The translations under genes were made by a program, and so were the position numbers. From positions 124,001-188,000 of the forward strand of contig RXJR01000024.1 of the NCBI GenBank assembly GCA_003963305.1: a DNA stretch of 64,000 bases. The letters run 5' to 3'. The stretch is from Candidatus Melainabacteria bacterium. Lineage in GTDB: Bacteria; Cyanobacteriota; Vampirovibrionia; Obscuribacterales; Obscuribacteraceae. The notes under the pieces were generated by a model. It was not told the origin of the DNA. It saw nothing but the letters and a program-made list of their open reading frames with translations, and searched no databases. Of the stretch, positions 13,861 through 46,108 are shown one piece after another (the stretch's first letter is position 1; each line of letters opens with the position of its first letter).

Positions 13861-13895
13861 GGAATTTGTCTGGAATTTCCTGTGACAAAATCGGG
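13861..13895 (-). promoter_or_regulatory. Conserved 35-bp upstream element, site A
   Basis: On the minus strand it reads CCCGATTTTG, then TCACAGGAAA, then TTCCAGAC and a terminal ATTCC. It matches the shared pattern (CCCAAA, CACAA, TTCCGG, GTTCC at fixed spacing) described in the findings and ends 60 bp before the MocR-like gene. Confidence 0.6.
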
Positions 13896-13949
13896 TAAAA
13901 ACTTTTCAAAATCAGGCTTGAAATTCACCAATCATTCCTCTCCGGCTTT

Positions 13950-15527
13950 CTATGCCTGCTTGCCACCAGTTGCTTTCTGCAAGAGGGATTCAACCATGTC
14001 GCCAGGTTTGAAATCGAGAGCAGAGAACGGAACGTATGCGAGCATCACCATAAAAGCTGTGTACACAATGGGTTCCCACGCGCTTGACGGGTCGTAACTT
14101 CCCATCTCTTGCAGCCAGTGAATGCGCGTGCACATGCACAATAAGATAATGCACCACCAGAAGCGCCAGAGAACAAGGTCGATAAGAGCATTGACCCAGT
14201 TGGAAAAAACTGGACGAAAGAGCGTTCCTGCGCCCTCCGGCCAGGCGAACATAGCAGCAGCAATCGGACCAAGCAAAAACAGGTAGCAGACTGCAACCAG
14301 TTGATATGTGGTCAGCACCATAAGTCCGGTGTTAAGAAGAGCCTGCACGCCTCCAAACACAGCGCGGGTCGTGGAATCAGCCGTAGACTCGCTCTTGTTG
14401 CGAGCTGATACCTGAGCCGGAGTCATGTTTTTGGTCGGATTCATCAAATCTTGTGACCACTGACTCACCGTTTGAAGATCGATTTCTTGCTTCACAGCAT
14501 CAGTCATAGAATTGCCGAAATCGATGGAATAGCTTACGACCAGTTGCACCGTTCCCAGTAAAAATATCGCCACGATGGAACGGAGAATGCCTTCAAATGG
14601 CTGCCACGTAGATGCCATAGCGGACGCAAAAGGTGCAGACACGTAATTTTTGGTCTGAGTTATAACCGCTCCCACAAGCAAAAGGAGAACTCCCAGCGGA
14701 AGAAAAAACGCTTTGTACATTTGCTGGACAATCCAGACTGACTGCGACAACGTGCGCTGCGTATCAGTGCCTCTCGCGGGAGTGGCGACAATTTCGTTGG
14801 CGACGTTGATTAGTGGACTGGAAGTAGCATTGAGATTAGCCTGAAAAGCAGAAGCAGCGGCACCGTTGGCGGCATCAGCTGTCTGCTGCGCGGTACCCTG
14901 ATATGTTGCCTGAGTTGTCTGGATATTAGGATTAAGCAATTGCTCTGCGGTTCGCTGCGTTGCCGTCAATCGCGCCGCCTGATCCACCAGGTCACTGGCA
15001 GGAGCACCAGTCATCAGTGGCATGCCCGAAAAAGTGTTGACGTTCTGAGTATTCGAAATCGGATTATTAGGCAGAATATGCATATAAAAGTGTTCGCCGA
15101 CTGGTGGTCCGAAGTGACTGAGCATCGGATTAGAATCGATTGTGAATTCCTTCTGCATGAAAGGCTGTGGTATCACGCCCGGCAGCACTTGCTGCGCTGT
15201 AGCGGAGAACGCTGGTGTCGTCACAGAAGGGGCTCTGCCTGAAGGGCGAGTTCCTGCTTGATTAGGCATCTGGTAGGTTGCCGGCTGATCGGCGCCCAGC
15301 TCAACGGAGAAGGGCTGCATCAAATCGGAGATGCCGAGGTGCGGCAGCATTTGATAGAAATTCTGCTTGATTCCGAAGAAAGAATTGCTCTGAGGCAACG
15401 TAAATGAAACTGCCCCTGCTTTACCCGTTAAGTTGTTACTGATAGCGGCTGGCGCACCTGCAGTAAAGGATGCACCGACAAGTAAACACAAGGCGAAAAG
15501 AGAGTCAATTCTATGTATTCGGTTCAT
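13950..15527 (-). CDS. VirB6/TrbL-like polytopic membrane protein
   Basis: The 525-aa product starts at ATG 15527 with AGGG seven bases upstream. It begins with a signal peptide (MNRIHRIDSLFALCLLVGASFTAGA), then about 230 exported, Gln/Ala/Thr-rich residues. The C-terminal half has five to six membrane helices with FEGILRSIVAIFL, SYSIDFGNSM, LFLLGPIAAAMFAWP and FSNWVNALIDLVLW. The large divergent gene at 16411 encodes the same block (FEGILRAVVAIFL, NYGIDFSNS, LFFVGPIAAALWVWP, FPNWIEGVI), so the two are paralogues. Topology resembles the VirB6/TrbL inner-membrane components of type IV secretion, but no other T4SS gene is visible here. That role is inference. A 65-aa gene precedes it. Confidence 0.75.
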   Translation of the reverse strand: MNRIHRIDSLFALCLLVGASFTAGAPAAISNNLTGKAGAVSFTLPQSNSFFGIKQNFYQMLPHLGISDLMQPFSVELGADQPATYQMPNQAGTRPSGRAPSVTTPAFSATAQQVLPGVIPQPFMQKEFTIDSNPMLSHFGPPVGEHFYMHILPNNPISNTQNVNTFSGMPLMTGAPASDLVDQAARLTATQRTAEQLLNPNIQTTQATYQGTAQQTADAANGAAASAFQANLNATSSPLINVANEIVATPARGTDTQRTLSQSVWIVQQMYKAFFLPLGVLLLLVGAVITQTKNYVSAPFASAMASTWQPFEGILRSIVAIFLLGTVQLVVSYSIDFGNSMTDAVKQEIDLQTVSQWSQDLMNPTKNMTPAQVSARNKSESTADSTTRAVFGGVQALLNTGLMVLTTYQLVAVCYLFLLGPIAAAMFAWPEGAGTLFRPVFSNWVNALIDLVLWRFWWCIILLCMCTRIHWLQEMGSYDPSSAWEPIVYTAFMVMLAYVPFSALDFKPGDMVESLLQKATGGKQA

Positions 15528-15601: not shown

Positions 15602-15799
15602 TCAGCAATTAGCCAGTGGTGGCAATGCGATACCATGATCGTGTTCGGCGGCGAAAAACATTACACTCTCCAGGCTTTCATTTTGAGAACTGCGCGGCTT
15701 CAAGCCACTGGTATTGTGCAGCATGTCGAAGCGTGGAGCTGACGTAGAAGCGTCTGACATACGTCTAAAGAACTCACGGATTGACTCAGAATTATTCAT
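15602..15799 (-). CDS. Small hypothetical protein (65 aa), first gene before the VirB6-like gene
   Basis: ATG 15799 has GAGGAA seven bases upstream, a strong ribosome site. The product begins MNNSESIREFFRRM, is polar in the middle and ends in a hydrophobic HGIALPPLANC tail with a terminal Cys. It is separated from the membrane-protein gene by 74 bp on the same strand and probably shares its transcript. No family recognised. The conserved upstream element (site B) sits 112 bp before it. Confidence 0.6.
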   Translation of the reverse strand: MNNSESIREFFRRMSDASTSAPRFDMLHNTSGLKPRSSQNESLESVMFFAAEHDHGIALPPLANC

Positions 15800-15911
15800 T
15801 GCAGTTTCCTCAAATCAAATCCTCGAACGAGGATCAGGAGTTAGTAAAAGCCAGACATGGTGAGCTGAAGGGCATTTATTCGCTGGCAATGAAAGATTAG
15901 CTGGGACGACG

Positions 15912-15946
15912 TTACAGCCACCGGACAAAATTGTAACTAAATTGGG
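15912..15946 (-). promoter_or_regulatory. Conserved upstream element, site B
   Basis: The minus strand reads CCCAATTTAG, TTACAATTTT, GTCCGG and then diverges from the consensus. It lies 112 bp before the 65-aa gene; the left two-thirds match the other sites well, the right end poorly. Confidence 0.5.
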
Positions 15947-16006
15947 TAAACGAAAATTCCGTGCTCAAAGCAGCCTTGCTTACTTCGTGTTGCGCCATTT
16001 AAAATC

Positions 16007-16151: not shown

Positions 16152-16322
16152 ATCGAAGTAAGGGGCTTGAAAGTTCCATATCGCCAAGAAGCAGGCGCAG
16201 TAGGGTTTTCAGAACAGAAACGTAGCATTACCGACTTTGACGATGGCTGCGAGGGTCATAGGCTGGCTGTTACGAAGAACAAGCGAGAAAAACGCATATA
16301 GAAAGGACTCGGGGCAAGCTTA

Positions 16323-16357
16323 CACAAAAAACACACAAATCGTTCCGTTGCTGTTCC
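16323..16357 (+). promoter_or_regulatory. Conserved upstream element, site C
   Basis: CACAAAAAAC, ACACAAATCG, TTCCGTTGCT, GTTCC: the same length and spacing as site D at 25647. It ends 53 bp before the ATG of the 1232-aa protein. Confidence 0.6.
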
Positions 16358-16410
16358 TCCAGCGCTTGCTAGATTTCATGCACCGCACGAGTCCATTCTG
16401 GGAGATTGAA

Positions 16411-19400
16411 ATGACTTCTAGCGCTCGCTCTATAAGCAAAGCTTTCAAACTGGCTCTGGTAGCCTGTCTATTCATAAGCATAAAAACAGCATCAGCAGCT
16501 CCTGGCGCCCCCGCCAATCCAAATATCGGTCATGCATCGCTAAATACGATGGCTGATCAATACTTGCAACAGTATCCTGAAGCGAAGTTCTTGCGAGATG
16601 CAGACCTACGTGATGCCAACAACAATGCGATCCCAGGCATTGTTACTCCTGCGGCGATCCCCGGTGCGGGTCCGTTAGGCACAATGTTTCCACCTACGCC
16701 GGCAGCAGCAATGAACTTTCCGACTCCCAGCAGAATGGAAGCTGCCATGATCACAGCCGGGCTCACGCAGATGGGCGGATTCAGTGGGCAACAACCGTCA
16801 GACCTGAAAACCTATCTCGGTCAAATGGTATCAGGCAGCTTCATGGCTCGCTCACTGCAATACCCGCCCAACGTTGCTAACCAGGCTCGTGCGCAAGCGA
16901 TCGGACAGTCGCAGGCGATGACGAACGCCATGGGCGACATGTCCAAATCGCAGGCAGCAAGTGCGATTGGATACTGCTCCAGCTTTCTGCAGAACTTTAC
17001 TAGCGACGACAGCAACAGATGGAACAAAATTCGCAACGGCTTGTTCGTTCCAATAGCTGTTCTACTGCTACTCCCAGGCGCTATCCTCACCCAGGTAAGA
17101 GCCATGGCTGTTGCCGGTAACCCAGTGTTATCCGACCCTTCAAAAGGCGATGTCAATCCGTTCGAAGGAATTTTACGTGCGGTTGTGGCAATTTTCTTGA
17201 TTCCAGCAACTTACCTTGTTATTAACTACGGCATCGACTTTTCTAATTCCGTTGTCGATTCAATCGCATCGACTTACCAGACCATCATGGGCTCGAACAT
17301 GTATCAAGATGCGCTTGGAACACAAGTGAACGCATTTCCGGTTCGCACTCCAAAGCAAAATCAGAACGCAGGTTTTGCCAAAGAATGGCCGCAAACGGCT
17401 ATTACAGATCCAAAATCATTCGAACAGAACTTGATCAGAAATCTCGATCCTGTCACCGGTCAACCTATACCCGGCAAAACTGACGAAGCGATGCCATCGG
17501 CAGCCGTAGCCGCTCGCCAGCTCTCGTTTGGCGCCAACGCTGGTCTGACGGCGGCATGGAACATTCTCTGCGCCTTCCAGATGGCATATCTCGGCTACCT
17601 CTTTTTCGTTGGACCAATTGCAGCGGCACTCTGGGTGTGGCCAATGGCAAACTTCCGCAGTGCCTTTCCAAACTGGATTGAAGGCGTAATTACACTCTGC
17701 TTCTGGAGTCTCTTCTGGAACACTACCATCTTGCTGATGGCATGCTTCAAAGGCTCTGACGAAAGCACCACAATGATTACTACTGCTCTGAATTTCCTGG
17801 CCACGTCATCCGTCAAATTCGCGTTCGATTTCGCCAGCCTGGTCAAAGCGGCGGGACAAGAAGCCGGTTCCAAGGCACTGGCTGGGAACCAGGGCGGCGG
17901 CGGCAAGGGCGGTGGTGCCGGCGGAAAAGGAGCGCAAGGAAAGGCCGGCGCAGGCATGGACGCGGCGCATAAAAATGCGGGGGCGCTAGCACATCAACCG
18001 ATGGGAGCAACGCACGGAGCAGCCCCAGCATCCGATGCATCGCACGCCGAACAAGCAACGGTACAGCCCTCAGGCTTGAGCTCCGCTCCATCGCAAGGTG
18101 GGTTCGAGCCAGGCGCTACCCCTTCCTCCACCGACAGTTCAACAGAAACAAGCAATGCCTCTTATTTCGCAGCACCGCAACTGCCACCACTGGCACTAGC
18201 ACCGCGCCAGGAAGCCAACTCGATCAGAACTGAAAACACATCCCTGGGCAATTTTACAGTCAGCCGCAGTTTCAATGAAAATGGAGAGCCAGTAGATGTT
18301 CTGAGAACGGCTACTGGAGAAGACATCGGTACACTTCCATCCGACCCGTCTCTTCCCGCACATTTGAACTACGACGGTCAACAAATCGACGTTGCACGCG
18401 TAAACACAGCGGAAGGCACCAGATTCACATTGAGCAGCCCATCTGACCCTGGTCATTCTTTCACAGCCATGATGCCACCCGCCAGCGCTTTCCAACCAGA
18501 AGCTGTTTTGGGCGGAATGCTGAACGGCAGCGGCAATAGAGCAGAAGATTCAATCGCGCTTCGCTCAAACTGCGGCACGCTACTTCTAGAAGATGGCGGC
18601 AACACCATTCTCGTACCATCGAGCGATCAAAACGGATACGACTCCTTCACGTTGCAGCCAGGTGCTTCGGAAGGAACATTCTTGAGCGAAGGACGAGCAG
18701 TTACAATATCATCCCTCAACCCTGGAGACCCATCGAATCCAGACCGAGCGGTTTCTCTGCGCGCCGCAAATGGCGCACTAGAGTCGTTCAACATCAGAAT
18801 GACAGGCGACGGGGCGTACAACATCGCGCATAGCATCAATGGACAAAACGCCGGCAGCAGCTACGTTTCAACAGACGGACAGAACACCTATTACGCAAAA
18901 TACGACGCCAACGGTGTGCTCACCGACATGGATCAGATCAATGGCAATCAAATCAACAGCACGCTTTACTCCGATGACTCCACTGTGCTTGGTTCCGTCA
19001 GTACAACCTACGAAGCTAACGGCAATTCCGAATCGCTCTACTATCAGCCAGACGGCACACTCGCAGCCAGTGCCACGCACATGTACAAACCAGAAGGTGG
19101 CTTCATCGACACAGTACGCAACGCTCAGGGCGAAGTAGTTAGCGTGCAGAACGTCGGTCCGAACCAGTACTACGGCAGCGCATATGCACCAGCCAGCAGT
19201 TATCAAACGGATGCGAGTTATCAAACAAACGCAAGCTATCAATCAGCTGCGGGTTCCGAACCAGCCAACGTAATGCAACAATACAGTTCCGCAGCTTCGA
19301 CAACTCACAACTATAACGACGACTCACAGACCGTTGTCGCCGAAACGTCCGCCATGGCTAATCAAGCCGCCGCATTATTGCATCGAGACGCGCAATCGGC

Positions 19401-20109
19401 AATCGCGCACCAGAGCGCCTCTTCCGCACCAGCACCGGCACTTGCTCCGGCCCTGGCACCGGCGGCACCAGTCCGCGCTCGCGACGCTGCCGATGTGCAC
19501 GCAGCAGCGGCGACTGCGGCATCGGCAGCAGCAAACGCTGCAACCAGCAATCAAAATGCAAACATGCGCAGCTTCAGAACCATTTCTGCCATCCTCGCAG
19601 GAACTACGCCTGCTGCAGTGGCTCGAAACAATAGCCAGAGCATAGATAGCAATGGCACCGGAAGAACCAGTGGCGAAAAAGTTTCAGCCCCGACAGTTGA
19701 TGTTCAGGAGCAATATGCAGCAGCAGCCATGGCTGCACAACATGCTACCTATGCGAGGGAGCAGCTTAACTCAAACAGCCAGGTGCTAAGCGTTTCATCC
19801 ACACCAAACAACACCAACGTCAATCCCATTTTGAGAAGTAGCTCCTATCCCGAACATGCACGGGAAAAAACTTCCGCCAACAACGCTTCGAACTACGAAA
19901 TTCTCAATTCGCTGCTGCAGATTGGTCACTTTCAGCAGGCCCGATTAATCATCCCGATCATTCATCAAGAAATCGCTAAACAGCACATCACAAATGACAC
20001 CCGACAAATGGTCAACGCCTACGTTCGATTGTTGCAGCAATACAACATGAATGACGAGGCGAAGTTGATTCAGAGCACAATCGGTCAGCCAGCCAGCGCA
20101 ACGCTCTAA
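16411..20109 (+). CDS. Giant VirB6/TrbL-like membrane protein with long repetitive C-terminal extension
   Basis: The 1232-aa product starts at ATG 16411 with GGGAG six bases upstream. It opens with a signal sequence (FKLALVACLFISIKTASA), then an exported region of about 170 residues, and a membrane domain (about 200-490) paralogous to the divergent 525-aa protein. A Gly/Lys hinge (GGGGKGGGAGGKGAQGK) leads to a tail of about 700 residues. That tail has a beta-rich YD-like stretch (PDGTLAA, NAQGEVVSV), Tyr/Gln/Ser repeats (YQTDAS, YQTNAS), an Ala/Pro-rich coil, and a final helical-repeat-like segment of about 75 residues. Such fused tails are known in some VirB6-like proteins of intracellular bacteria; a role in secretion is inferred. 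Site C lies just upstream. Confidence 0.8.
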   Translation: MTSSARSISKAFKLALVACLFISIKTASAAPGAPANPNIGHASLNTMADQYLQQYPEAKFLRDADLRDANNNAIPGIVTPAAIPGAGPLGTMFPPTPAAAMNFPTPSRMEAAMITAGLTQMGGFSGQQPSDLKTYLGQMVSGSFMARSLQYPPNVANQARAQAIGQSQAMTNAMGDMSKSQAASAIGYCSSFLQNFTSDDSNRWNKIRNGLFVPIAVLLLLPGAILTQVRAMAVAGNPVLSDPSKGDVNPFEGILRAVVAIFLIPATYLVINYGIDFSNSVVDSIASTYQTIMGSNMYQDALGTQVNAFPVRTPKQNQNAGFAKEWPQTAITDPKSFEQNLIRNLDPVTGQPIPGKTDEAMPSAAVAARQLSFGANAGLTAAWNILCAFQMAYLGYLFFVGPIAAALWVWPMANFRSAFPNWIEGVITLCFWSLFWNTTILLMACFKGSDESTTMITTALNFLATSSVKFAFDFASLVKAAGQEAGSKALAGNQGGGGKGGGAGGKGAQGKAGAGMDAAHKNAGALAHQPMGATHGAAPASDASHAEQATVQPSGLSSAPSQGGFEPGATPSSTDSSTETSNASYFAAPQLPPLALAPRQEANSIRTENTSLGNFTVSRSFNENGEPVDVLRTATGEDIGTLPSDPSLPAHLNYDGQQIDVARVNTAEGTRFTLSSPSDPGHSFTAMMPPASAFQPEAVLGGMLNGSGNRAEDSIALRSNCGTLLLEDGGNTILVPSSDQNGYDSFTLQPGASEGTFLSEGRAVTISSLNPGDPSNPDRAVSLRAANGALESFNIRMTGDGAYNIAHSINGQNAGSSYVSTDGQNTYYAKYDANGVLTDMDQINGNQINSTLYSDDSTVLGSVSTTYEANGNSESLYYQPDGTLAASATHMYKPEGGFIDTVRNAQGEVVSVQNVGPNQYYGSAYAPASSYQTDASYQTNASYQSAAGSEPANVMQQYSSAASTTHNYNDDSQTVVAETSAMANQAAALLHRDAQSAIAHQSASSAPAPALAPALAPAAPVRARDAADVHAAAATAASAAANAATSNQNANMRSFRTISAILAGTTPAAVARNNSQSIDSNGTGRTSGEKVSAPTVDVQEQYAAAAMAAQHATYAREQLNSNSQVLSVSSTPNNTNVNPILRSSSYPEHAREKTSANNASNYEILNSLLQIGHFQQARLIIPIIHQEIAKQHITNDTRQMVNAYVRLLQQYNMNDEAKLIQSTIGQPASATL

Positions 20110-20365: not shown

Positions 20366-23038
20366 ATGTCTAGTGACTCGCAAAGAAAGGGCGATTCGTG
20401 CCATGAAGGTCGAGATACCGGTTCGATTTCAGTTAATTCGAATCTGATGCATGAAATTTCGGAACTGCGGAGAAATCAATCTGCACGTGGTCAATGCGCA
20501 CAAACTCAAGAGAGCCCGGATAATCGACCAAACACCCTCGCATACCTACCTTGTTTACACCTTTACAGCGGGAACGACCAACATTCCAGCACGGATGACG
20601 AACACCATCGGCGCAACGGTTACGACCCTCATCCAGACCGTGACGAGCATCACCGGCATCACGATGACGAACATCATTCAGACCGAGATGAACACCACCG
20701 GCATCACGATGACGAACATCACCCAGACCGTGATGGACAGCACCGGCATCACGATGACGAACATCATTCAGACCGCGATGGACATCATCGGCATCACCAC
20801 AGACATGACCACGGCGAACACGGTGAACATCACCACGGGCACCGTCATCAGCACCACGCTCACAACCACCCGAGCCAAGATGGGAACGACAACAATTCTT
20901 CTGCATCTCAGCCAGACAAACCGCCTGTGGGACAACCGAGTGACTCAAATAACGAACAAACTACGAATCCGCCGGAGACCTCTCCAAGTACACAAACAAG
21001 CCTGGGCAGCCATATCTACAGCGATGGTCCTTCATACTATGTTTCTCCCAATGGAGATGACAAAGCCGATGGCAGCAAAGAACATCCATTCGCCACGCTG
21101 AAACGTGCTGCTCTGGCGATGGAAAACTCGTCAATCAAGACAACGACAGTAGAAGCTGGAAACTACAAGATGCAAGAAACACTTCATCTAACCCAAAAGG
21201 ATGATGGCGTTACTTTCCAGTTTGATAAAGCAAGCGGTCCAAACCAAGCGGTTTTCGACGGCGGAAATTCAATAGACCGCATGATTGATATCGAAGGCGG
21301 CTCACACATTACGATCAACGGATTGCGCCTCACTAATTTCAAATGGACTGGCATCTTCAACCACGGTGGCACGGTCGATCATCGAGATAAATCAAGTCAA
21401 AATGTCGGCTCGGCAAGCGGGAATAGATTCGTCAACAATGAAATCGATCACAATTCTCAAACAGGTGATTGGACTGTCGGCGCCACGGGAGTTAGTGCGG
21501 CCATCGTCAACGACCAGGTGACACCCGACACACTCGTCGCCAACAATTACATTCACGACCTCCAATACATGGGCATACAGGCAGGACGCTCATCTGATCT
21601 ATCTGCCGCAGCAGGGGATTACAGCGGCACCGTAATTAGTGGCAACGTCATCGACCACGTCATGCAAGGCAGGCACGATGGAGGCGCGATCTACTTATGG
21701 AACGCGCGCAAGCAAATCTCCGGTGGAGAAATTATCGAAAACAACTTCATCACGAACTACAGCAGTTCGACGCTGGGAGACGGGAAGGGCATCTATCTCG
21801 ATGATGGAGCATCAAACACTATAGTCAGAGGCAACGTCATCTCTGAAACAGACCCTCAAAAGTCCACATCTGAAGCCATTTTTATTCATGGAGGAATTAA
21901 CAACACAATCACCAATAACTTGATTGATCTTGGTGACTCGGGAAAAATTGCGGCACTGGGATACGCTTCAAGCCCTCTGCATCCCGGCGGAATGACAGGC
22001 AACGTTTTTGAGAACAACGTTATCGTCTCCGATTTTAAAGGCAATCAGCAGACAAGTGGGATGGGAGTGACCGGCTACACCTACTTGAACGGTTATGGCA
22101 ATGCAGCACGCGGAGCCAATCCCCAGATCAAAAACAACATCTATCACAACTACGCCGGTGGACAAGAGCGCACTGATGGTAACGGTATTGGCGATAGTAG
22201 TCCAATCCACGAAACGCCGAACCAAATACCACTGGAAGGGAATTGGGGTCCGCTTGGATACTCTCTCCCGGCAGATCGAAAGGCTGCCCTTCAGGAAACT
22301 AACTCCTCACCAATTGCCGAGACAAGTCCCTCTCCATCAAACTCAGCTAACGGTTCCCCAAGCAAAACCCTCGACTTCACGCCTCTTCCATATGCGGAAT
22401 CAGCCGCTACCATTGCCGTTCTTCCGGTCAATCAGATTCAGGCGCACGTCGATGAAAACAATAAGTACAACAATCAGGCTAAAGCTGGTGGAATCAAAAA
22501 GCTGTTTGTCGGCGACTCACTGACGGAACTGCAACCTGCGGATATATTTCAGCAAAACTTCGGCACAGATGCAGCCAAATTCGGAGTAGGCGGCGATAAG
22601 ACGCAGAATCTCCTCTATCGCTTGAAAAATGGCGAATTGGACTTTCCAGCCAACGATCAGCCCAAAGTTGTTGTCATGGAAATCGGCACCAACAACATCG
22701 GAAACACAACAGCCAGCCAAATTCTTGACGGCATAAAAGCAAATATAGATACGATAAAGTCGAAACTGCCTCACACAAAAATCTTGCTGGAAGGCATATA
22801 TCCGCGTGGCACGTCCATGACTCCGGCGTCCATCGTGGCCCTTAATACCGAAATCGCGAAGCTTGCAGATAACAAGAGTATTTATTACACGAACGCGGGC
22901 GGAGAAAAGCTCCTGAACGCAGACGGCAGCGTCAACACAAGCTTATTTAGATCGGATCATGTGCATCCCAACGCTCAAGGTTACGCCATATTGGATGCAG
23001 CGCTTGCTCCGATCGTCGACGAGCTAGCCGCGAGCTAG
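20366..23038 (+). CDS. His-rich repeat / parallel beta-helix / SGNH hydrolase fusion protein
   Basis: The 890-aa product starts at ATG 20366 with AGGAG upstream. Three parts are visible. Residues about 90-170 are dominated by His, Asp and Glu in 15-residue repeats (DRDEHHRHHDDEHHS), a likely metal-binding region. Residues about 225-640 form a right-handed beta-helix of the pectate-lyase type, opening with YYVSPNGDDKADGS and continuing with NxIxxN-type coils. Residues about 710-890 are an SGNH/GDSL hydrolase with all blocks: FVGDSLTE (Ser), GVGGDKT, EIGTNN and DHVHPN (catalytic Asp/His). No classical signal peptide is seen, so export would need a non-Sec route or a missed start. Activity is probably on a polysaccharide or its acyl esters (inference). 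Confidence 0.85.
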   Translation: MSSDSQRKGDSCHEGRDTGSISVNSNLMHEISELRRNQSARGQCAQTQESPDNRPNTLAYLPCLHLYSGNDQHSSTDDEHHRRNGYDPHPDRDEHHRHHDDEHHSDRDEHHRHHDDEHHPDRDGQHRHHDDEHHSDRDGHHRHHHRHDHGEHGEHHHGHRHQHHAHNHPSQDGNDNNSSASQPDKPPVGQPSDSNNEQTTNPPETSPSTQTSLGSHIYSDGPSYYVSPNGDDKADGSKEHPFATLKRAALAMENSSIKTTTVEAGNYKMQETLHLTQKDDGVTFQFDKASGPNQAVFDGGNSIDRMIDIEGGSHITINGLRLTNFKWTGIFNHGGTVDHRDKSSQNVGSASGNRFVNNEIDHNSQTGDWTVGATGVSAAIVNDQVTPDTLVANNYIHDLQYMGIQAGRSSDLSAAAGDYSGTVISGNVIDHVMQGRHDGGAIYLWNARKQISGGEIIENNFITNYSSSTLGDGKGIYLDDGASNTIVRGNVISETDPQKSTSEAIFIHGGINNTITNNLIDLGDSGKIAALGYASSPLHPGGMTGNVFENNVIVSDFKGNQQTSGMGVTGYTYLNGYGNAARGANPQIKNNIYHNYAGGQERTDGNGIGDSSPIHETPNQIPLEGNWGPLGYSLPADRKAALQETNSSPIAETSPSPSNSANGSPSKTLDFTPLPYAESAATIAVLPVNQIQAHVDENNKYNNQAKAGGIKKLFVGDSLTELQPADIFQQNFGTDAAKFGVGGDKTQNLLYRLKNGELDFPANDQPKVVVMEIGTNNIGNTTASQILDGIKANIDTIKSKLPHTKILLEGIYPRGTSMTPASIVALNTEIAKLADNKSIYYTNAGGEKLLNADGSVNTSLFRSDHVHPNAQGYAILDAALAPIVDELAAS
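20636..20815 (+). repeat. 45-bp coding tandem repeat (His/Asp-rich)
   Basis: Units at 20636, 20681, 20726 and 20771 are each 45 bp, the first three nearly identical and the fourth diverging in its second half. They encode the 15-residue His/Asp repeat. Because the unit is in phase, the +1 frame is also open here, giving a Thr/Ile-rich shadow frame. Confidence 0.9.
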
Positions 23039-23219
23039 CCGCCTGATCGGTCCTGAGGTGGCAAATTAGGGTCTTCTGCGCGATTAACGTTCCGTCTCAG
23101 GCATGGGATACAATCATTAGACGATCGTTCGACAAGTGGGCGAAAGGTCGCGTTCAGACCTGGATGAAAAGTCGAGTTTAGACCTGGCTGCCCATTGCAG
23201 GGAAAAGGTAGACCGAAAA

Positions 23220-23894
23220 ATGCCGAAATTGCTTCTAGCAGATGACGACAATCAGCTCCGCCAACTCGTGGGTGACTGGTTAGAACATGAGAATTACAAC
23301 GTAGACCTCGCCTGCGACGGACCTGAAGCAAAAGAATATCTGTTATCCGGTGACTACGACGTGCTCATCCTCGATTGGAGCATGCCGGAACCTTCCGGCA
23401 TCGAACTCTGCAAATGGTTCAGGGCAAAAGGCGGCAGCACGCCAATTATTATGCTGACTGGTAAAGACGAAATCGAACACAAAGAAGTCGGGTTCAGCGC
23501 CGGAGTAGACGATTACCTCACCAAACCATTCGAATTGCGAGAACTGGCGGCGCGCTTGCGGGCTCTGCTGCGACGTGGAAATGTGGCAGCATCGCGCACT
23601 GTCAAGGTTGGTCCTCTTGTGCTGGACCCTGACAGCCACAGCGTCACTGTTGACGGTGGACCGCTGACACTAACAGCGACAGAATTTGCGGTGCTCGAGT
23701 TTCTCGGACGTCATCCCAACCAGGTCTTTAACGCGAACGCGCTTTTGGACCGAGTTTGGAGCAGCTCATCCGAGGTATCACCAGATACGGTGCGCGTCTA
23801 CATCAAGCGACTGCGAGCGAAATTCGAAGGCATTGGATATCCCGACTTGATTCAGAACATACACGGCGTTGGTTATAAATTGAACGTGGTGTGA
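23220..23894 (+). CDS. OmpR-family response regulator
   Basis: The 224-aa product starts at ATG 23220, giving the standard N-terminus MPKLLLADDD. The receiver domain has the acidic pair, phospho-acceptor Asp in LILDWSMPEPSG, Thr in IIMLTGKDE and Lys in YLTKPF. The C-terminal winged helix has TATEFAVLEFL, DTVRVYIKRLRAKF and NIHGVGYKL. It should bind DNA when phosphorylated. No kinase gene is adjacent; the nearest is 9.5 kb away. It is closely similar to the regulator at 42388, so the two may share kinases or targets. Confidence 0.93.
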   Translation: MPKLLLADDDNQLRQLVGDWLEHENYNVDLACDGPEAKEYLLSGDYDVLILDWSMPEPSGIELCKWFRAKGGSTPIIMLTGKDEIEHKEVGFSAGVDDYLTKPFELRELAARLRALLRRGNVAASRTVKVGPLVLDPDSHSVTVDGGPLTLTATEFAVLEFLGRHPNQVFNANALLDRVWSSSSEVSPDTVRVYIKRLRAKFEGIGYPDLIQNIHGVGYKLNVV

Positions 23895-25595: not shown

Positions 25596-25646
25596 GATCT
25601 TTGTCACCTTACCAGTATTACAATTCCAACTCTAAACTCTTCCAGC

Positions 25647-25681
25647 GGAACGAAGCCGGAAATATTTGTGCATTTTTTGGG
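25647..25681 (-). promoter_or_regulatory. Conserved upstream element, site D
   Basis: Minus strand: CCCAAAAAAT, GCACAAATAT, TTCCGGCTTC, GTTCC. It is one of the best matches and ends 51 bp before ATG 25595. Confidence 0.7.
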
Positions 25682-25696
25682 ACAAAACAGTCCTGG

Positions 25697-26848: not shown

Positions 26849-26989
26849 TTCTCATTCCTCGTCTGATTGCAGCAATAGGACTGTAGAGGCGACAAAACTC
26901 AGATCGGGTAGCATTAATTGCTCTGCGATTGCTTATTGTCTTGCGATTGGTAAGTTCCTGCTGATGCTTTTAAGAATATCGCTGAAAAC

Positions 26990-27025
26990 GGAACTAAGTC
27001 TGGTACACATTGTGAATTTTTTGGT
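26990..27025 (-). promoter_or_regulatory. Conserved upstream element, site E
   Basis: Minus strand: ACCAAAAAAT, TCACAATGTG, TACCAGACTTA, GTTCC. It is very close to site F in its right half. It lies 141 bp before the ATG at 26848, the longest spacing of the ten. Confidence 0.65.
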
Positions 27026-27064
27026 TATGCAATATCGAGTTGCACACTAACAACCCGACTCGAC

Positions 27065-29062: not shown

Positions 29063-29108
29063 TAAGTAGTAATTGCGTTACGAACGTTTCGATAGTAGAA
29101 GAAGCGAT

Positions 29109-32770: not shown

Positions 32771-32779
32771 GGAACGTTT

Positions 32780-36300: not shown

Positions 36301-36463
36301 TATTCAAGTGGATAGCTCAGACGACGGCAGATTCCGTACTTCAGGGCTCTCACTGGCGATTACAAAAGCAATTGCAGAACAACATGGCGGATGCGTCGGT
36401 GTAGAGGCGCAGCAAGGAGCCGGAAATACCTTCTGGATAAAAGTTCCAGTCGGCATGCTCTAA
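33392..36463 (+). CDS. Double-module histidine kinase with split active sites (1)
   Basis: The 1023-aa product contains two complete sensor-kinase architectures in tandem. Module 1: helices at about 7-27 and 172-195, then a dimerisation helix whose H-box reads VVKDELSNPL, so the phospho-acceptor His is Asp252. Its ATP-binding domain is intact (NFLSNAIKFSP, DQGRGIP, GTGLGLTIS). A Lys-rich linker follows. Module 2: helices at about 505-525 and 715-740, intact H-box IVSHELRTPL (His805), but a decayed ATP site (DHGTAIS instead of DxGxGI, TSGLSLA instead of GxGLGL). Module 1 may phosphorylate the His of module 2. It lies in an operon behind the three TadE-like genes. Confidence 0.9.
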   Translation: MKILSKGLILVVVPLIFGICFILWLFNGLSEVNTLVQRGLILKDSIITYITADRHNLVARRCYLVFKYSNDPYYKENWQSNKKDSQAAVDHIHALLKADPSLPLPPLHGTGEQTTLFGALDKELTEICQLGLGQKQDLSETSETLLPLQYASDVQTKRAVTAMDAQIATLNTGVISELLISIALMLFFCLSVTLRLSKMVDNTLSLANGSDLKPPVKGKDEIAELDQFIFKSALEIKELEEFKKGMIGVVKDELSNPLNSIGQFLNSLSQGAFGELAGKAKDRVDGAALSIKRLAGLLTDLLMLDRSQLKISPRQTDVQRVLNSAVNSVQELANQSGIEIVVKNETGTIVADDDRLVQVVVNFLSNAIKFSPAKAKVIVQTVQRGDWFECRVSDQGRGIPEEFRKTIFEPFTQVDAKDATTKKGTGLGLTISRSIIEQHGGVIGVDSEVGKGTTFWFKIPASGLEQSTQNYLSQDQRKAEVGAPAAAATTKRNEKKKKGKFSVLMQGIVIISVPLIFQLCFIASLVDLFKHAGEQVQREEASKNALVALNHMSDEYTDSARCGVMYAYTKSPSFWKLFEMSKGKALEQLEKARTFLSDANAQSAEDLKQIRSSLDGFSTMLKEEADRLHESNATSELRPYFTEGKMPTAAQIHALASDKTKQHAVVTQIVSLLEDKTHIARLYTPLVEVYKAQERVMAREQVTGEELANQRADMVKRLQNAFLAGLIVNVIISIFLVVFLMKNLTDRLKHVMNNTARIVKREPLAAPERGIDDEIAYLDRVLFSTGTHIIELDNFKRDLIGIVSHELRTPLSSISATLEALSLGVFGELSDSAQSRLKLADEEARQLVALINDLLDLEKMDAGKFIMDKSECNILDAVEAAVEAVAAPAESKNVQLVIDEFDDSLKIHADKSRLRQALTNLLTNAIKLSPGNETVRLTVSKTAENAIEFRFVDHGTAISDELQKRIFDRFIQVDSSDDGRFRTSGLSLAITKAIAEQHGGCVGVEAQQGAGNTFWIKVPVGML

Positions 36464-36508: not shown

Positions 36509-36515
36509 CCACATA

Positions 36516-36550
36516 CCCAAATTAGTCACAACGCTGTACGGATTTATTCT
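36516..36550 (+). promoter_or_regulatory. Conserved upstream element, site G
   Basis: CCCAAATTAG, TCACAACGCT, GTACGGATTT, ATTCT. It ends 53 bp before the ATG of the 112-aa gene. Confidence 0.6.
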
Positions 36551-36603
36551 AGCTTCGCGGCGCATGCTGCTTCCAAGCATGGAAAACGGCACAGAGGTGA
36601 TTT

Positions 36604-36942
36604 ATGGCAAACGTTGATTACGACGGGCTGAATCCAGAAGAACTGTTGCTCATCGATGCTGCGCTGCAATCGACGCCGGACAACTGGGCTAACATTGCGT
36701 TGCAGATTCAAGATGATTTAAAAGAAGGCAAGATAGGCAAATTCGAAAGCTCAAGCGCTCAGGAAGTAGCAAAACTCGATCGAATCATTTCACAGAATAT
36801 CGACCCTGGTTCGCCCGATCGCTTGTTCCCTCAGTTTCAAGTCGACAGCAAAGGAACCATCACTTTCACACCGCAGGAACATCATCTGCAAAGAAAAGTA
36901 CTCAATCATCATGATCATCCACTCAACAGCAGTCCGCGATGA
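36604..36942 (+). CDS. Small acidic hypothetical protein (112 aa)
   Basis: The product has GAGGTG close before the ATG. It is acidic and mostly helical at the N-terminus (NPEELLLIDAALQS, NWANIALQIQDDL), then has a beta-like stretch (QFQVDSKGTITFTPQE) and a His-rich tail (HHDHPL). No family is recognised. It carries the conserved element (site G) and precedes the GH76 protein by 91 bp, so it may be the first gene of that transcript and could act as a chaperone or immunity-like partner (speculative). Confidence 0.65.
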   Translation: MANVDYDGLNPEELLLIDAALQSTPDNWANIALQIQDDLKEGKIGKFESSSAQEVAKLDRIISQNIDPGSPDRLFPQFQVDSKGTITFTPQEHHLQRKVLNHHDHPLNSSPR

Positions 36943-40994: not shown

Positions 40995-41735
40995 CTACTG
41001 ATACGGTGCAAATGCCGACACAAGTGAACCAACAGGAAAACCAGCCACCTGAGCCGTCTCCGCAGCGGTCGTATTTAACCGATAGCCGACACCGTGCACG
41101 TTCTCAATCAGATTCCGGTAGCCCACAGCTTCCAACTTTTGACGCAGACGTTTTACGTAAGCACGCACGGTATCACATGAGGTGTCCATAGAATCTTTCC
41201 AAACGTTGTTCAGGAGTACTGTTGGAGACAACACGTTATTCGGATGCAGAGCGATATATTCGAGCAAGGCAAACTCAGTTGCGGTCAAACTCAACATATG
41301 TCCAGAAATAGAGGCGGTATGCATAGTCGGATCGATAGTGAGCGGACCTTCCACAATGCGACTATATGAAGTCATGCTGCGACGCCTCAGAGCGTTGACT
41401 CTGACAGCCAGTTCTCGCAGAGCCAATGGTTTGCTCAAGCAATCATCCGCACCAGCGGCGAAAGCCGCAACTTTATCCTCGATATCGTCGCTGCCCATTA
41501 GCACGAGCAGCGGGCTTCTGCCTCCACGGGATCGAAACCACTTGATCATTTCGAGACCGGTTGGTGCTGCAAGATGCCAATCAAGCACGACGACGTCAAA
41601 GAGATGTTTGGCCAGCAATTTCTGGCATGCCGCACCAGTAGAGGCTGTTTCCACAGTCAGATGCTGGCTCTCAAGCCAACTACATATCTGGATCAACAAG
41701 CTCTCGTCTTGATCGACAACTAGAACTTTAGGCAT
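40995..41735 (-). CDS. OmpR-family response regulator with atypical receiver
   Basis: In this 246-aa product the receiver keeps the acidic residues, the phospho-acceptor Asp (VVLDWHLAAPTG) and Lys (CLSKPL). The conserved switch Thr is Met (LLVLMGSDD) and the switch aromatic is Cys (DDCLSKP), and the usual MP after the Asp is replaced. The winged helix is normal (TATEFALLEYI, DTVRAYVKRLRQKL, NVHGVGYRL), followed by a 25-residue tail. It may signal without normal phosphorylation switching. The gene carries conserved element site H 52 bp upstream, so it may be part of the regulon. Confidence 0.9.
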   Translation of the reverse strand: MPKVLVVDQDESLLIQICSWLESQHLTVETASTGAACQKLLAKHLFDVVVLDWHLAAPTGLEMIKWFRSRGGRSPLLVLMGSDDIEDKVAAFAAGADDCLSKPLALRELAVRVNALRRRSMTSYSRIVEGPLTIDPTMHTASISGHMLSLTATEFALLEYIALHPNNVLSPTVLLNNVWKDSMDTSCDTVRAYVKRLRQKLEAVGYRNLIENVHGVGYRLNTTAAETAQVAGFPVGSLVSAFAPYQ

Positions 41736-41787
41736 TGATTATGATTCCTCGGGTAACCGAACAACCTGATGTTATTTCGCGAGCGAG

Positions 41788-41822
41788 GAATAAAGCCGTA
41801 ATAGGTTGTGTAATGTTTGGGT
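41788..41822 (-). promoter_or_regulatory. Conserved upstream element, site H
   Basis: Minus strand: CCCAAACATT, ACACAACCTA, TTACGGCTTT, ATTCC. It ends 52 bp before the atypical response regulator gene. Confidence 0.65.
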
Positions 41823-42063
41823 ATTGAGATCCGGCTGTTTACTCAAGAAATTCACAACAAAATCCAGATTTGTTAACGGTGACAAAGTTATAAACAATGC
41901 AGTTGAAAACAAGGAATCAGCGAGGCACAAACGAGGAGCAATCGCCTTTTCAACAATTCACTTCAATAGACAATTTTGCAAAGGGGTCGTCCGGTCATTC
42001 AGTGAGTGAGCGGGCGATTGCATCTTTAATTGCGTATACGGCAGTTCTGCAAAAACCGAACGC

Positions 42064-42125: not shown

Positions 42126-42263
42126 CTAGCGGATGAGGCGAGCACCATTTTTCACAACTCCGAAGACGGACTCTTTCGCAGTATAAGAAACTACAGCCGA
42201 ATGATTGCAGAGCGGCTTACTTGAGAATTCACTGTTCTGATAACTCATGACACCGGAATTCAT
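42126..42263 (-). CDS. Small hypothetical protein (45 aa) with its own promoter element and terminator
   Basis: ATG 42263 has GGAG eight bases upstream and opens 45 codons ending at TAG 42126. The product begins MNSGVMSYQNSEFSS and ends FGVVKNGARLIR; it is basic at the C-terminus with no membrane helix. It is flanked by the conserved element (site I, 44 bp upstream) and a strong terminator downstream, so it is a complete transcription unit. It is too short for common annotation cut-offs. No family recognised. Confidence 0.6.
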   Translation of the reverse strand: MNSGVMSYQNSEFSSKPLCNHSAVVSYTAKESVFGVVKNGARLIR

Positions 42264-42307
42264 TTTGCCGTCTCCGTTTATCTTTCCGCAATTTACATGC
42301 GCAGAGG

Positions 42308-42342
42308 GGAAGCAAAACGGAATCTTTCGTGTACATTTTGGG
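42308..42342 (-). promoter_or_regulatory. Conserved upstream element, site I
   Basis: Minus strand: CCCAAAATGT, ACACGAAAGA, TTCCGTTTTG, CTTCC. It ends 44 bp before the 45-aa gene. It also lies 45 bp before the divergent response-regulator ATG at 42388 and could influence both. Confidence 0.6.
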
Positions 42343-42387
42343 TAGGATTAGTTGGATGATATTTCAGGACGCAATTAGGAGTTCCAC

Positions 42388-43065
42388 ATGCCAAGGGTAC
42401 TGGTAGCCGACGATGATGATCAGTTGCGCGGAGTAGTTACCGATTGGCTCGAAAGCCAAAATTTCGAAGTGGAAGCGGTCAACAACGGTTCGGCGTGCAA
42501 AGAAGTATTGGAAGGCAAGACCTTTGATGTCATGGTTCTCGATTGGCAAATGCCGGGTATGTCCGGCGTTGAGGTCTGCCGTTGGTATCGCGAGAAGGGA
42601 GGCACCACGCCAGTGCTGATGCTGACAGCAAAGGACGAAATCAAAGACAAAGAAGCCGGCTTTGGTGCGGGAGTCGATGACTATCTGACAAAACCATTCA
42701 TACTGCGAGAACTTTCGGCACGTCTGTCAGCCCTGCTGCGAAGAGGACAAGTAGCGCCTTCTCTCGTGGTCGAATTCGGACCTCTGAAAGTCGATCCAGA
42801 CAAACATCTTGTCACCGTCAATGGTGCACCGATAAAAGTGTCGCCGACAGAATTCTCTATTCTCGATTTTCTGATACGACACCCAGGGCAGGTCTTCAAC
42901 ACCACAGCTTTACTGGATAGAGTCTGGAAAAGCACGGCTGACGTTTCACCTGATACGGTGCGTGTCTATATTCGCCGATTGAGAGACAAATTCAAAGAAG
43001 TCGGCTATCCCGAACTGCTTCAGAATATTCATGGCGTCGGTTATAAGTTGCAGATACCAGAGTGA
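42388..43065 (+). CDS. OmpR-family response regulator
   Basis: The 225-aa product has AGGAG six bases before ATG 42388. All receiver residues are present: LVADDDD, VLDWQMPGMSG (phospho-acceptor Asp), MLTAKDE and YLTKPF. The winged helix has SPTEFSILDFL, DTVRVYIRRLRDKF and NIHGVGYKLQI. It is closest to the regulator at 23220. Its stop is 13 bp from the stop of the convergent double kinase, which is its most likely partner. Confidence 0.94.
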   Translation: MPRVLVADDDDQLRGVVTDWLESQNFEVEAVNNGSACKEVLEGKTFDVMVLDWQMPGMSGVEVCRWYREKGGTTPVLMLTAKDEIKDKEAGFGAGVDDYLTKPFILRELSARLSALLRRGQVAPSLVVEFGPLKVDPDKHLVTVNGAPIKVSPTEFSILDFLIRHPGQVFNTTALLDRVWKSTADVSPDTVRVYIRRLRDKFKEVGYPELLQNIHGVGYKLQIPE

Positions 43066-43078: not shown

Positions 43079-45997
43079 TCAGGCGCCAGCCGGTAAGCAA
43101 ATCTCTATTGTTCGACCTCGATTAGAAGTAGTGAGCTGCAAGTCTCCACCGTGTTGCTGAGCAGTCTGTCGCGCCAGGTTGATCGCCATTTGTTCTCGCG
43201 CCAGCTCCCGATGTTTGTTCGAGTAACCACTTTTGGAAATTCCATAAGGCGCGCCAACTGCAAGGACTATTTGATCTCTTACGGTTTTGCACTCAACCGA
43301 CACTGAAGATTTCGCAGGCAACCGCTCAACTATGCTGCGAATCAGCGCCGTCAAAGCCTGACTGAGACGACTGCTGTCGCCCAACAGCTCTTGCTTGCAG
43401 TTCTGTATCTCAAGAATGACACCTCGATTGTCGGCAGGCTGCAAATTATCGTTCTTGATCTGCTCGAACACGGTTTCGACATTGATCTTCTGCTTGGTCA
43501 CCAGTATTTTGCCTGATTCCATTTTTTCAAGATCGAGCAAATTTGTAATCAAAACAATCAGCTCACTTGTCTCGAGGCGAGCACTGGCAAGAAGCTTGTG
43601 CCCCTCGTCAGTCAACTCACCAAATACGCCCGCTTCCATAACCTCAATCAACGCGATGATCGATGTTAGCGGCGTCCGCAGCTCATGACTGGTTATACCG
43701 ATCATTTCGGCACGTAGAGCTTCTAATTCAATCAACTTCTTTCCAGCTACGTACAGTTGCTGCTCAACAAACGCCAGCTCATCATCTCCTGGCTCCGGCT
43801 CAGGAAGCTCGCGACGTTCCGAAAAATGCAACGCCCTGTCGGACAATCTGGTTGCGCGGCTGGTAAGACTTTTCGCAATTAATAAACCTAGAGCAGCGGC
43901 TACGAGCGAAGCAACGATAGCAGACACAAACAACAGCGTTGAAAACGCATGCCGTATTTCCTCCGAAGCAAGAGCGTTGCTGGCAATCAAATCCTTCTGA
44001 TACAAAAGCATATCGTGCATCGGGCGGCGTACATCAATCAAGAGACTTTCCTTCTTATCAGTGCCTCGTTCACCGATAAAAGTTGTCAGATCCGCATCCT
44101 GCGGCGCATCGATCAGATGTTCGTGAAAAGCAAGATGAGCGCTAATCATATCCAGCAGTTTTTGGGTCAAACCATCAGTGATCGGTTCACCAGCCGTTAG
44201 CTTTTCTAATTCAGCCATGTTCTTGCGCAGGCTTTCGTCTTCGGCCCTGGCTGCGTCAAGGTCGGCTTGACGCCTGTCGGCGTTATACAGTAAGGCATAC
44301 ATTCCGCCTTTGGCAACACTAGCCATGAGCATGTCGCACAACGCAGTGACGCGCGGAATTTTTTGCATCTCTGCTATCTTCTCAGAGTTTTGATGCAAGA
44401 AATTGAACAAAGCAAATACTGTAACGAGTTGCACAATCATCGGCAACGCCACCACCAGCAATGCCTTCTTCCAAATTGTAGGTCTCCACCCCCGTTCCTC
44501 AACGCTCAGCTTCTTATCGACGCGCTGCGCGTGTTTTTCAGGTGCCTTTTTCGGCAGCGAAAACCAAAATGTAGACCCCTCACCAATTTTGGAGGAGAAA
44601 CCAATCTCACCTCCTTGAGATTCAATTATTTCCTTGCTTATCTGCAAACCAAGCCCGGAGCTAGCCGGTCGCTCAGCGCCCGGGTTCTCGGCCTGCTCGA
44701 AGCGTCCGAAAATTCTGGCATGAAACTTTTCCGGAATCCCTGGCCCCTGGTCGCGAACAGATACACGAGCCTGGCTTTCGGAGGAACTGATATCAACTTC
44801 GATTGTGGAATTGACTGGAGAATATTTGATTGCATTAGAAAGCAAATTGATTAAAACTTGAGTCGTTTTGTCGGCATCGGCGAAGACAGTGACATCATCA
44901 GCGCGACGGGTGGATATGGATATCGACTTTAACCGCGTTAGAGGTTCGACAATCTTCAAACATTTATTGACAGTTTCGTTCAAGTCGAGCATATGAACGT
45001 CCAGGCGCCGCCCGGCTGCGTCCAGGTTCACCAATTCGAAAACAAGCGAGCCAAGACGCTTAACTTCAGCGAGCGAATCGCTCAGCCGCCTTGAGCCCTT
45101 TTCGCTCAAACTTGCGAAACCTACTTGAGGCAAAGCCTGCAGCGCGGCTTCTACTTCGGCTAGAGGTTTGTTCAACTCCTCTGCGATGATGGCAGTCGTT
45201 TGCGCCTGAAATTCTTCTGCATCTCTGATTTTATTCGCCGTCGACACCACCGCCGCATTCAACTTGCTGATTTCATCCCCGCCCTTCATAGAGACAAGTT
45301 CGCTCTTGCCATCAGCGAGAGCATTGATGTTTGCAAGAACAGTCTTCAGACGGCGCGAAACAGAGAAACTAAACATCAACCCACTTACCAGGCTGGCAAG
45401 CAACATGGCGAAAAGTCCGAAGTAGAGCATGGAATAGATAAATTGCATACGCGACTGTACGGCTTCATCTTCCTGCTGCTTTTTCTGCTTATCTTCAACA
45501 AAATATTGTTCGATAAACGGCACCTTGGTCATTTTGATGTTATGTTCAATCATCATGCGACCGCCGGCCACACCCTGGCCCATCAGCTCGCCGACAGTTT
45601 GTCTCCGACCCGTATGCCCAAACTGGCTGATCACAATGCGGTCTCGTTGCGAACTCATATTCCAGAGTTTCTGCAAGCCCTGAGCGCGCTCCTGTTTGTC
45701 AATCCAGAGCTTCGAAAGATCGTTGCAGATAACACGCGTGTCGGCACAAGCTTCTTCGAACTTGCGTGCGCAACTTTCCTCAACGGTTGCCAGATACATC
45801 GTCATAAGAAGCAGCAGCTGGCGTTCATTAATGAACAATCGGTCACGAGCCATGACAGTCTCGATATCATGTTCTGCGAGAATCTGCTCGTCGGCGAGTT
45901 TCTTCAAGTTGTCCGACAAAAATAGGAGAAACGTCACTTGAATAGCAAGCGGAATCGCCACAACCAGCAATATTTTCTGCGTCAGAGATAACTTCAT
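43079..45997 (-). CDS. Double-module histidine kinase with split active sites (2)
   Basis: The 972-aa product starts at ATG 45997, where the membrane-anchor MKLSLTQKILLVV begins; the frame is open to 46165. Module 1 has helices at about 8-28 and 190-215, HAMP-like sequence, an H-box IIAEELNKPL in which His is Glu273, and an intact ATP site (NLLSNAIKYSP, DQGPGIP, SSGLGLQIS). Module 2 has helices at about 520-540 and 680-705 and an intact H-box ITSHELRTPL (His771). Its ATP domain is badly decayed: no N-box Asn, VGAPYGIS in place of DxGxGI, no GxGLGL. The design is the same as the kinase at 33392. It is convergent with the regulator at 42388. Confidence 0.9.
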   Translation of the reverse strand: MKLSLTQKILLVVAIPLAIQVTFLLFLSDNLKKLADEQILAEHDIETVMARDRLFINERQLLLLMTMYLATVEESCARKFEEACADTRVICNDLSKLWIDKQERAQGLQKLWNMSSQRDRIVISQFGHTGRRQTVGELMGQGVAGGRMMIEHNIKMTKVPFIEQYFVEDKQKKQQEDEAVQSRMQFIYSMLYFGLFAMLLASLVSGLMFSFSVSRRLKTVLANINALADGKSELVSMKGGDEISKLNAAVVSTANKIRDAEEFQAQTTAIIAEELNKPLAEVEAALQALPQVGFASLSEKGSRRLSDSLAEVKRLGSLVFELVNLDAAGRRLDVHMLDLNETVNKCLKIVEPLTRLKSISISTRRADDVTVFADADKTTQVLINLLSNAIKYSPVNSTIEVDISSSESQARVSVRDQGPGIPEKFHARIFGRFEQAENPGAERPASSGLGLQISKEIIESQGGEIGFSSKIGEGSTFWFSLPKKAPEKHAQRVDKKLSVEERGWRPTIWKKALLVVALPMIVQLVTVFALFNFLHQNSEKIAEMQKIPRVTALCDMLMASVAKGGMYALLYNADRRQADLDAARAEDESLRKNMAELEKLTAGEPITDGLTQKLLDMISAHLAFHEHLIDAPQDADLTTFIGERGTDKKESLLIDVRRPMHDMLLYQKDLIASNALASEEIRHAFSTLLFVSAIVASLVAAALGLLIAKSLTSRATRLSDRALHFSERRELPEPEPGDDELAFVEQQLYVAGKKLIELEALRAEMIGITSHELRTPLTSIIALIEVMEAGVFGELTDEGHKLLASARLETSELIVLITNLLDLEKMESGKILVTKQKINVETVFEQIKNDNLQPADNRGVILEIQNCKQELLGDSSRLSQALTALIRSIVERLPAKSSVSVECKTVRDQIVLAVGAPYGISKSGYSNKHRELAREQMAINLARQTAQQHGGDLQLTTSNRGRTIEICLPAGA

Positions 45998-46073
45998 GCG
46001 TAAATCATATAAGCCTGGCAGCTTTGCTGCATAGACTACCTCAGACAAGTCGAATCGCTTCCCTGCATACTTA

Positions 46074-46108
46074 CCCAAAAACTTCACACCAAATTCCGGA
46101 GTAATTAT
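46074..46108 (+). promoter_or_regulatory. Conserved upstream element, site J
   Basis: CCCAAAAACT, TCACACCAAA, TTCCGGAGTA, ATTAT. It ends 47 bp before ATG 46156 and points to the small plus-strand gene as real. Confidence 0.6.

Follow-up and report, generated by a model that had tools for sequence, protein, structure and literature searches.

What kind of signal is the element of about 35 bp that recurs upstream of ten genes in a 64,000-nucleotide stretch of a Candidatus Melainabacteria genome (referred to as the window), and which protein reads it? The original prediction assigned the ten sites to one putative regulon and proposed either an alternative-sigma promoter or a dedicated activator site. 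Coordinates and strands of all ten sites proved to be as given, and when each was left out in turn and both strands were scanned with a matrix from the other nine, excluding the training sites from the ranking, the omitted site came first (five of ten) or second (five of ten) among 128,000 positions. A matrix scan of the window also revealed an eleventh box of similar strength, absent from the earlier list, at 41840-41877 on the plus strand and divergent from the box of gene 40995-41735. The set is discrete, because scores below these eleven sites drop from 27.4 to 12.8 bits. The window ends had been described as lacking the element, and indeed no box of that strength was detected before 13.8 kb or after 46.2 kb. 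The boxes, with the -10 motif described below and with orthologues in the related genome G001, are as follows:

13843-13897, minus strand: box and -10 before the MocR-type gene 12241-13800; orthologous box in G001
15894-15948, minus strand: box and -10 before the 65-aa ORF 15602-15799, then the VirB6-like gene 13950-15527; orthologous box in G001
16321-16375, plus strand: box and -10 before the VirB6-like gene 16411-20109, then the same-strand gene 20366-23038 and the response regulator gene RR3; orthologous box in G001
25629-25683, minus strand: box and -10 before gene 24084-25595 (C39 in the original prediction)
26973-27027, minus strand: box and -10 before gene 25697-26848; orthologous G001 promoter, box 55% identical
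29092-29146, minus strand: box and -10 before the metalloprotease-domain gene 27065-29062; orthologous box in G001
36514-36568, plus strand: box before the 112-aa ORF 36604-36942; the -10 place reads CATGCT
41769-41823, minus strand: box and -10 before the response regulator gene RR1 (40995-41735)
41840-41894, plus strand: the eleventh box, which may drive a 63-aa ORF (ATG at 41897) or the response regulator gene RR2 via a long leader
42290-42344, minus strand: box and -10 before the 45-aa ORF 42126-42263
46072-46126, plus strand: box before the 94-aa ORF 46156-46440, which diverges from the kinase ORF 43079-46165; TAnnnT is missing from the exact place

For the eleventh box, the ATG of the small ORF (41897) precedes the predicted +1 (41901), so this promoter may drive RR2 through a 487-nt leader. 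Elsewhere in the window, direct repeats of 11 bp (AAATTCGCGAC / AAATTCGAGAC) form a short array at 8448-8505, just after ORF 7798-8436; with the box matrix this array scores 12-13 bits and does not qualify as a box.

The genome that contains the window comprises 7.48 Mb in 44 contigs. A matrix scan covered 400 kb beyond the window in 20 stretches, of which 14 lay on or close to contig regions where the model had matches, and yielded five more sites of at least 27 bits and one of 19.6 bits. The latter candidate, at L039 19102(+), fell to 14.3 bits with an independent matrix, lies inside an 899-aa ORF and was dropped. A simple pattern allowing one mismatch was too crude, matching three places genome-wide (two in the window) against six in the reversed control. 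A first model, built from the sequences of the eleven window sites only and run over 60 genomes, gave 15 matches in the window's genome, 13 and 20 in two genomes of the same genus, and 8 in G024, a member of another genus. It found nothing in 53 of the 60 genomes, and its single weak matches in three (G026, G041 and G053, E <= 0.05) disappeared with a longer model at E <= 0.001 and are attributed to chance.

Stretches around the matches in G001, G002 and G024 contained 48 sites of at least 20 bits and six of 12-20 bits, counts that do not represent a density since these stretches were picked for their model matches. Run on 1.245 Mb of the window's genome, a matrix derived from the 48 foreign sites alone recovered all 16 known sites and no others, with scores of 24.2-41.6 bits; the next score was 14.3 bits, and the reversed control peaked at 15.9 bits with nothing above 20. 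Equally good matches inside genes, which would speak against a regulatory element, were thus not encountered in this 1.245 Mb, where the best non-accepted place, within an 899-aa ORF, stands at 14.3 bits against 24.2 for the weakest accepted site. An ORF of at least 100 aa in any frame overlaps the centre of five of the 16 accepted sites, which counts against the box; at two of these, 16319 and 46070, what overlaps is the stretch by which the longest reading extends in the 5' direction (in ORF 16237-20109 and in the kinase ORF 43079-46165, respectively).

Whole-genome search with the longer model brought the total to 18 boxes, 11 in a 32-kb island and seven elsewhere, so the proposal of one regulon is upheld and extends beyond the window. 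The two boxes added by this model score 30.0 and 28.2 bits by matrix; that on contig C26 precedes a 547-aa ORF with matches to Peptidase_M23 and lysozyme-like domains in its first 503 aa, and that on contig C31 precedes a 301-aa ORF resembling, by eye, a boxed gene of G001. At E <= 0.001, boxes numbered 18 in the window's genome (G000), 16 in G001, 23 in G002, 10 in G024, 12 in G111 and 10 in G124. None was listed in the other 188 of the 194 genomes of the class, where single weak boxes are possible, searches of more than 40 genomes having scored only part of the first-look candidates. Among 50 genomes of the family that were covered, boxes occur in three of three genomes of genus g1 and three of eight of genus g23.

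The anatomy of the element points to its class. Sixty-four sites align without gaps, and their conserved blocks start at columns 2, 13, 24 and 35, reading TACCCAAAAAA, TnCACAAAnnA, TTCCGGAnTTA and TTnC, so that the box consists of four tandem half-sites with an 11-bp period, as in OmpR/PhoB-type boxes. The autocorrelation of the motif is 0.58 at shift 11 and 0.40 at shift 22, with lower shoulders at 12 and 23, and none of 5000 column shuffles reached the shift-11 value, whether at that shift or as the maximum over shifts 6-15. Comparison of the units showed that 1 and 2 correlate at 0.77 and 3 and 4 at 0.63, against 0.24-0.37 between the pairs. Several sites deviate from the consensus first quoted (15911-15948, for example, ends in GTAA). 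The unit of 35-36 bp was too short, since the conserved unit comprises four 11-bp repeats with a -10 hexamer 11 bp further on, and the two sites regarded as 36-bp length variants fit a 65-site alignment without a gap.

This -10 block occupies columns 51-56 (T in 47, A in 58 and T in 53 of the 64 sites) and lay outside the search matrix, which stopped at column 39. TAnnnT stands exactly at column 51 in 43/64 sites and within columns 50-52 in 49/64; among box-only sites of G111 and G124, neither of which was used in training, 15 of 19 carry it at columns 50-52. In the window, eight of eleven sites have it at column 51, and the three without count against a promoter reading. Column 63, the expected +1, is a purine in 50/64 sites. 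No -35 hexamer was recognized at its usual place, with at most three of six matches to TTGACA in 61 of 64 sites, and the location of the box over the -35 region, together with a retained -10, is that of an OmpR/PhoB-type activator box. Between column 63 and the chosen start codon, the leaders measure 51 nt in the median (19-52 nt in 30/64; longest 225), based on start codons that were picked by rule and of which some will be wrong. In seven G000/G001 promoter pairs, box and -10 are on average 76% identical and the flanks 47% and 53%, the weakest pair having a box 55% identical.

Candidate readers of such a box, and candidate partners for them, are encoded within the island itself:

23220-23891, plus strand: RR3, an OmpR/PhoB-family response regulator and the best candidate box reader (longest ORF 23136-23894)
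40995-41735, minus strand: RR1, a clade paralogue with its own box; atypical receiver, with one acidic residue and the switch Thr missing
42388-43065, plus strand: RR2, a clade paralogue with intact receiver residues
33392-36463, plus strand: candidate partner, a large histidine kinase whose single chain contains two HisKA and two HATPase_c stretches
43079-46165, minus strand: candidate partner, a large histidine kinase to which the box islands of five other genomes encode relatives

RR3 matches Response_reg (PF00072, 98.3 bits) and the winged helix Trans_reg_C (PF00486, 75.8 bits), both over the cut-offs. The acidic pair, phosphoacceptor Asp, Thr/Ser and Lys of the receiver are kept in RR3, RR2 and the orthologues (with Ser for Thr in G002), and the DNA-binding domain of RR1 stays in the clade despite its degenerate receiver. 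A search of 36 + 14 genomes with RR2 returned RR3 and one protein each of G001, G002 and G024 as the best non-self matches (289-326 bits), the next best match anywhere reaching 245 bits; in the species collection, the nearest named relative of RR2 comes from Candidatus Obscuribacter (42%). A phylogenetic tree of 50 regulators places the three window proteins and those of G001, G002 and G024 in a single clade (100/100, stem 0.66). Residue V193 is present in 7/8 clade members, compared with T in 35/44 other regulators, and N213 in 8/8, compared with T in 37/44; both are located in the DNA-binding domain, in what we take from the fold to be the recognition helix and the wing. RR3 is 93-94% identical between the window's genome and G001, and RR1 80%.

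The distribution of this clade follows that of the boxes. At E <= 1e-78, a threshold set after the gap in the RR2 searches had been seen, RR3 finds matches in the same six box genomes and in none of the other 188 of the 194 of the class. G111 and G124 were new to this co-occurrence test, having surfaced in the 194-genome box search, and within genus g23 both boxes and clade are present in three of eight genomes and both absent from five. The reciprocal of the number of ways to choose six of 194 genomes is about 1.5e-11, but since the six fall in two genera they are not independent, and the co-occurrence amounts to far fewer than six independent events. A comparison of box islands at E <= 1e-15, islands being of unequal size (42-285 kb), revealed that among 43 window ORFs of at least 90 aa only the three response regulators and the two large kinases have relatives in the islands of all five other genomes; the kinase relatives may be distant kin only, because identity goes down to 25%. 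Taken from sequence comparison, the RR3-type clade is the likely regulator acting on the boxes. The regulator's own gene is not always preceded by a box: G001, G024 and G111 are exceptions, no box being found before the RR1 orthologue of G001 or directly before the regulators of G024 and G111.

As for the kinases, HATPase_c precedes HisKA in 43079-46165, an order that suggests a doubled plan like that of 33392-36463. Directly before kinase 33392-36463, at 31488-33382, lie the genes of three small proteins that are paralogues of one another and have a hydrophobic stretch at the N-terminus, and the same order of three paralogues and kinase is observed in G001 (L171).

We consider it probable, with good confidence, that the box is a class II activator promoter whose repeats are bound by OmpR/PhoB-family response regulator dimers of the island-encoded clade. 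In this mechanism, the four half-sites 11 bp apart would cover the place of the -35, with the TAnnnT -10 at a fixed distance. Once phosphorylated, a clade member, most likely RR3, would occupy the box as two adjacent dimers, one at about -61 to -40 and the other at about -39 to -18, and would recruit RNA polymerase via sigma region 4 in a PhoB-like manner. One of the two large kinases of the island might supply the phosphate. A point that speaks against this mechanism is the unlike sequence of units 1-2 and 3-4, which one regulator need not explain.

This dissimilarity could instead reflect different response regulators sitting side by side on units 1-2 and units 3-4, an arrangement we regard as unlikely. 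It would suit units that are alike within but not between pairs, the three clade paralogues of the window's genome and the precedent of the quadripartite PhoB/TctD motif (as outlined in PMC4513871). However, G024, G111 and G124 display the same four-unit box with a single RR3 match at E <= 1e-78, although a more distant partner is possible; because of that single RR3-grade match, one regulator on both unlike pairs is favoured. An extended form of the two-regulator proposal, which appears doubtful to a similar degree, is a lineage-specific switch in which two unlike dimer sites in a rigid 44-bp box are occupied by two response regulators (two clade paralogues, or one clade member and an outside partner), the whole secretion-and-hydrolase regulon fires only when two signals agree, and box set and regulator have come or gone together within a single genus. 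Repression is another role that a box over the -35 region might have, the bound regulator blocking RNA polymerase in the way that RpaB is described to repress from HLR1 sites in some core promoters (PMC6331805). The overlap of the box with the core promoter would fit, but no -35 hexamer is kept and the promoter would therefore be weak without an activator, and a gap of 11 bp separates the end of the box from the -10, which is left uncovered, so that repression as the main role seems quite improbable.

Of the two possibilities first offered for the element, the dedicated activator site agrees with the 11-bp repeats, the sigma70-type -10, the missing -35 and the strict co-occurrence with one response regulator clade. 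An alternative sigma factor could account for the fixed place and orientation relative to a -10-like motif and for a small regulon, yet the roughly 38 bp of four tandem repeats are much longer than a -35 element, the -10 is an ordinary TAnnnT rather than part of a short -35/-10 pair unlike that of the housekeeping sigma, and the link is to a response regulator clade. The tandem 11-bp repeats, fixed TAnnnT and absent -35 thus argue for a class II response regulator promoter, and we give the sigma factor very little credence. Hardly any more plausible is that the box is read by the MocR-like regulator 12241-13800, which is itself boxed, as are MocR-type genes in the window's genome, G001, G002 and G024. 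Its distribution does not track the boxes, and this candidate was rejected: at E <= 1e-75, 34 of the 194 genomes encode relatives, of which 30 genomes have no listed box, and relatives are missing from the box genomes G024 and G111, whose island copies are only 25% and 22% identical.

To describe what the class II promoter would control, families were scanned in 58 proteins, comprising 56 first genes of the 64 boxes and two second genes; eight first genes were set aside because their ORFs were short, cut or doubtful. Boxed genes include, among the 25 of 40 matched families that were listed, four MocR-type regulators, two response regulators and at least four TPR proteins, and further matches listed comprise alpha/beta hydrolases, a PE-PPE domain, a calpain-type peptidase and weak LysM matches; the second gene 20366-23038 encodes a GDSL lipase. 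Domain searches bore out the MocR label of 12241-13800 (GntR and aminotransferase Pfam matches) and the metalloprotease label of 27065-29062, whose C-terminal part matches PF07737 (ATLF domain) with 31.6 bits against a cut-off of 27.4. The C39 label of 24084-25595 obtained no Pfam match at E 0.001.

Two boxed window genes, labelled VirB6-like, encode paralogous membrane proteins. For a model of one of them, TrwI/VirB6 and DotA, both of type IV secretion, came out first; the fold scores are marginal, and the label is thus a lead only. When profiles of these proteins were compared with PDB sequences, no match fell below E 0.7, and precomputed Pfam labels of four relatives were not reproduced in a fresh scan at 0.01. 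NCBIfam at 0.01 returned no family for the two VirB6-like genes, 20366-23038, 24084-25595 or 27065-29062. Some relatives of the membrane proteins are named Obscuribacterales or Melainabacteria. Several boxed genes encode small proteins, of which 36604-36942, scanned singly, matched no Pfam family at 0.001. Beside the island, 46583-49054 encodes an 823-aa protein with YD-repeat similarity (NCBIfam TIGR01643), before which no box of accepted strength is present.

The regulon genes are possibly secretion-related and are mostly of unrecognized function. Vampirovibrio, another member of the Melainabacteria, is portrayed in PMC4451040 as a proposed algal predator using a type IV system and hydrolases, and a Vampirovibrio-like function of the regulon is a speculation by analogy. 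The significance of the system is that, in a lineage that probably comprises relatives of Candidatus Obscuribacter, sequence alone connects a DNA element with the regulator likely to act on it, and that each box flags a likely co-regulated gene, many of them for small proteins without a known family. The regulon would provide a parts list for a single behaviour, which may be secretion aimed at other cells, and a genus with the set in three of eight genomes would allow functional comparison. If two regulators did act on the unlike halves, the box would constitute a clear natural case of built-in signal integration.

Systems of this kind, with an OmpR/PhoB-type box, are known, while this box and its clade are apparently undescribed in the literature searched: neither they nor such a regulon were found, among the matches listed, in work on regulation in Obscuribacter, Melainabacteria or Obscuribacterales, a search whose scope lay largely outside the subscription literature. 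The pho box is described as two 7-bp direct repeats, each followed by 4 bp of A/T to give 11 bp (PMC4971064), and PhoB promoters as lacking a canonical -35, with PhoB holding sigma region 4 (PMC4496699). The present box resembles them in having 11-bp direct repeats in lieu of a -35 and, in RR3, a protein with receiver and winged helix; it differs in its half-site sequence and in comprising four units in two unlike pairs, and RR3 scores 187 bits against the PhoB family (NCBIfam TIGR02154), under the cut-off of 296.2. RpaB and HLR1 of cyanobacteria, for which PMC6331805 reports TTACA-like repeated half-sites and a TA-N3-T -10 box in the phylum, share with our system an OmpR-family regulator, repeated half-sites and a TAnnnT-type -10. 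In contrast, HLR1 is presented there as a 16-bp site of another sequence, and RR3 reaches 141.7 bits against RpaB (NCBIfam NF045944), under the cut-off of 330. The PhoB/TctD motif of P. aeruginosa is, according to PMC4513871, built from two unlike pairs of half-sites, four in all, that are set at a fixed distance, with two regulators shown. Our box likewise contains four half-sites in two unlike pairs, whereas its binding is predicted from sequence, and three of the six box genomes have a single RR3-grade member.
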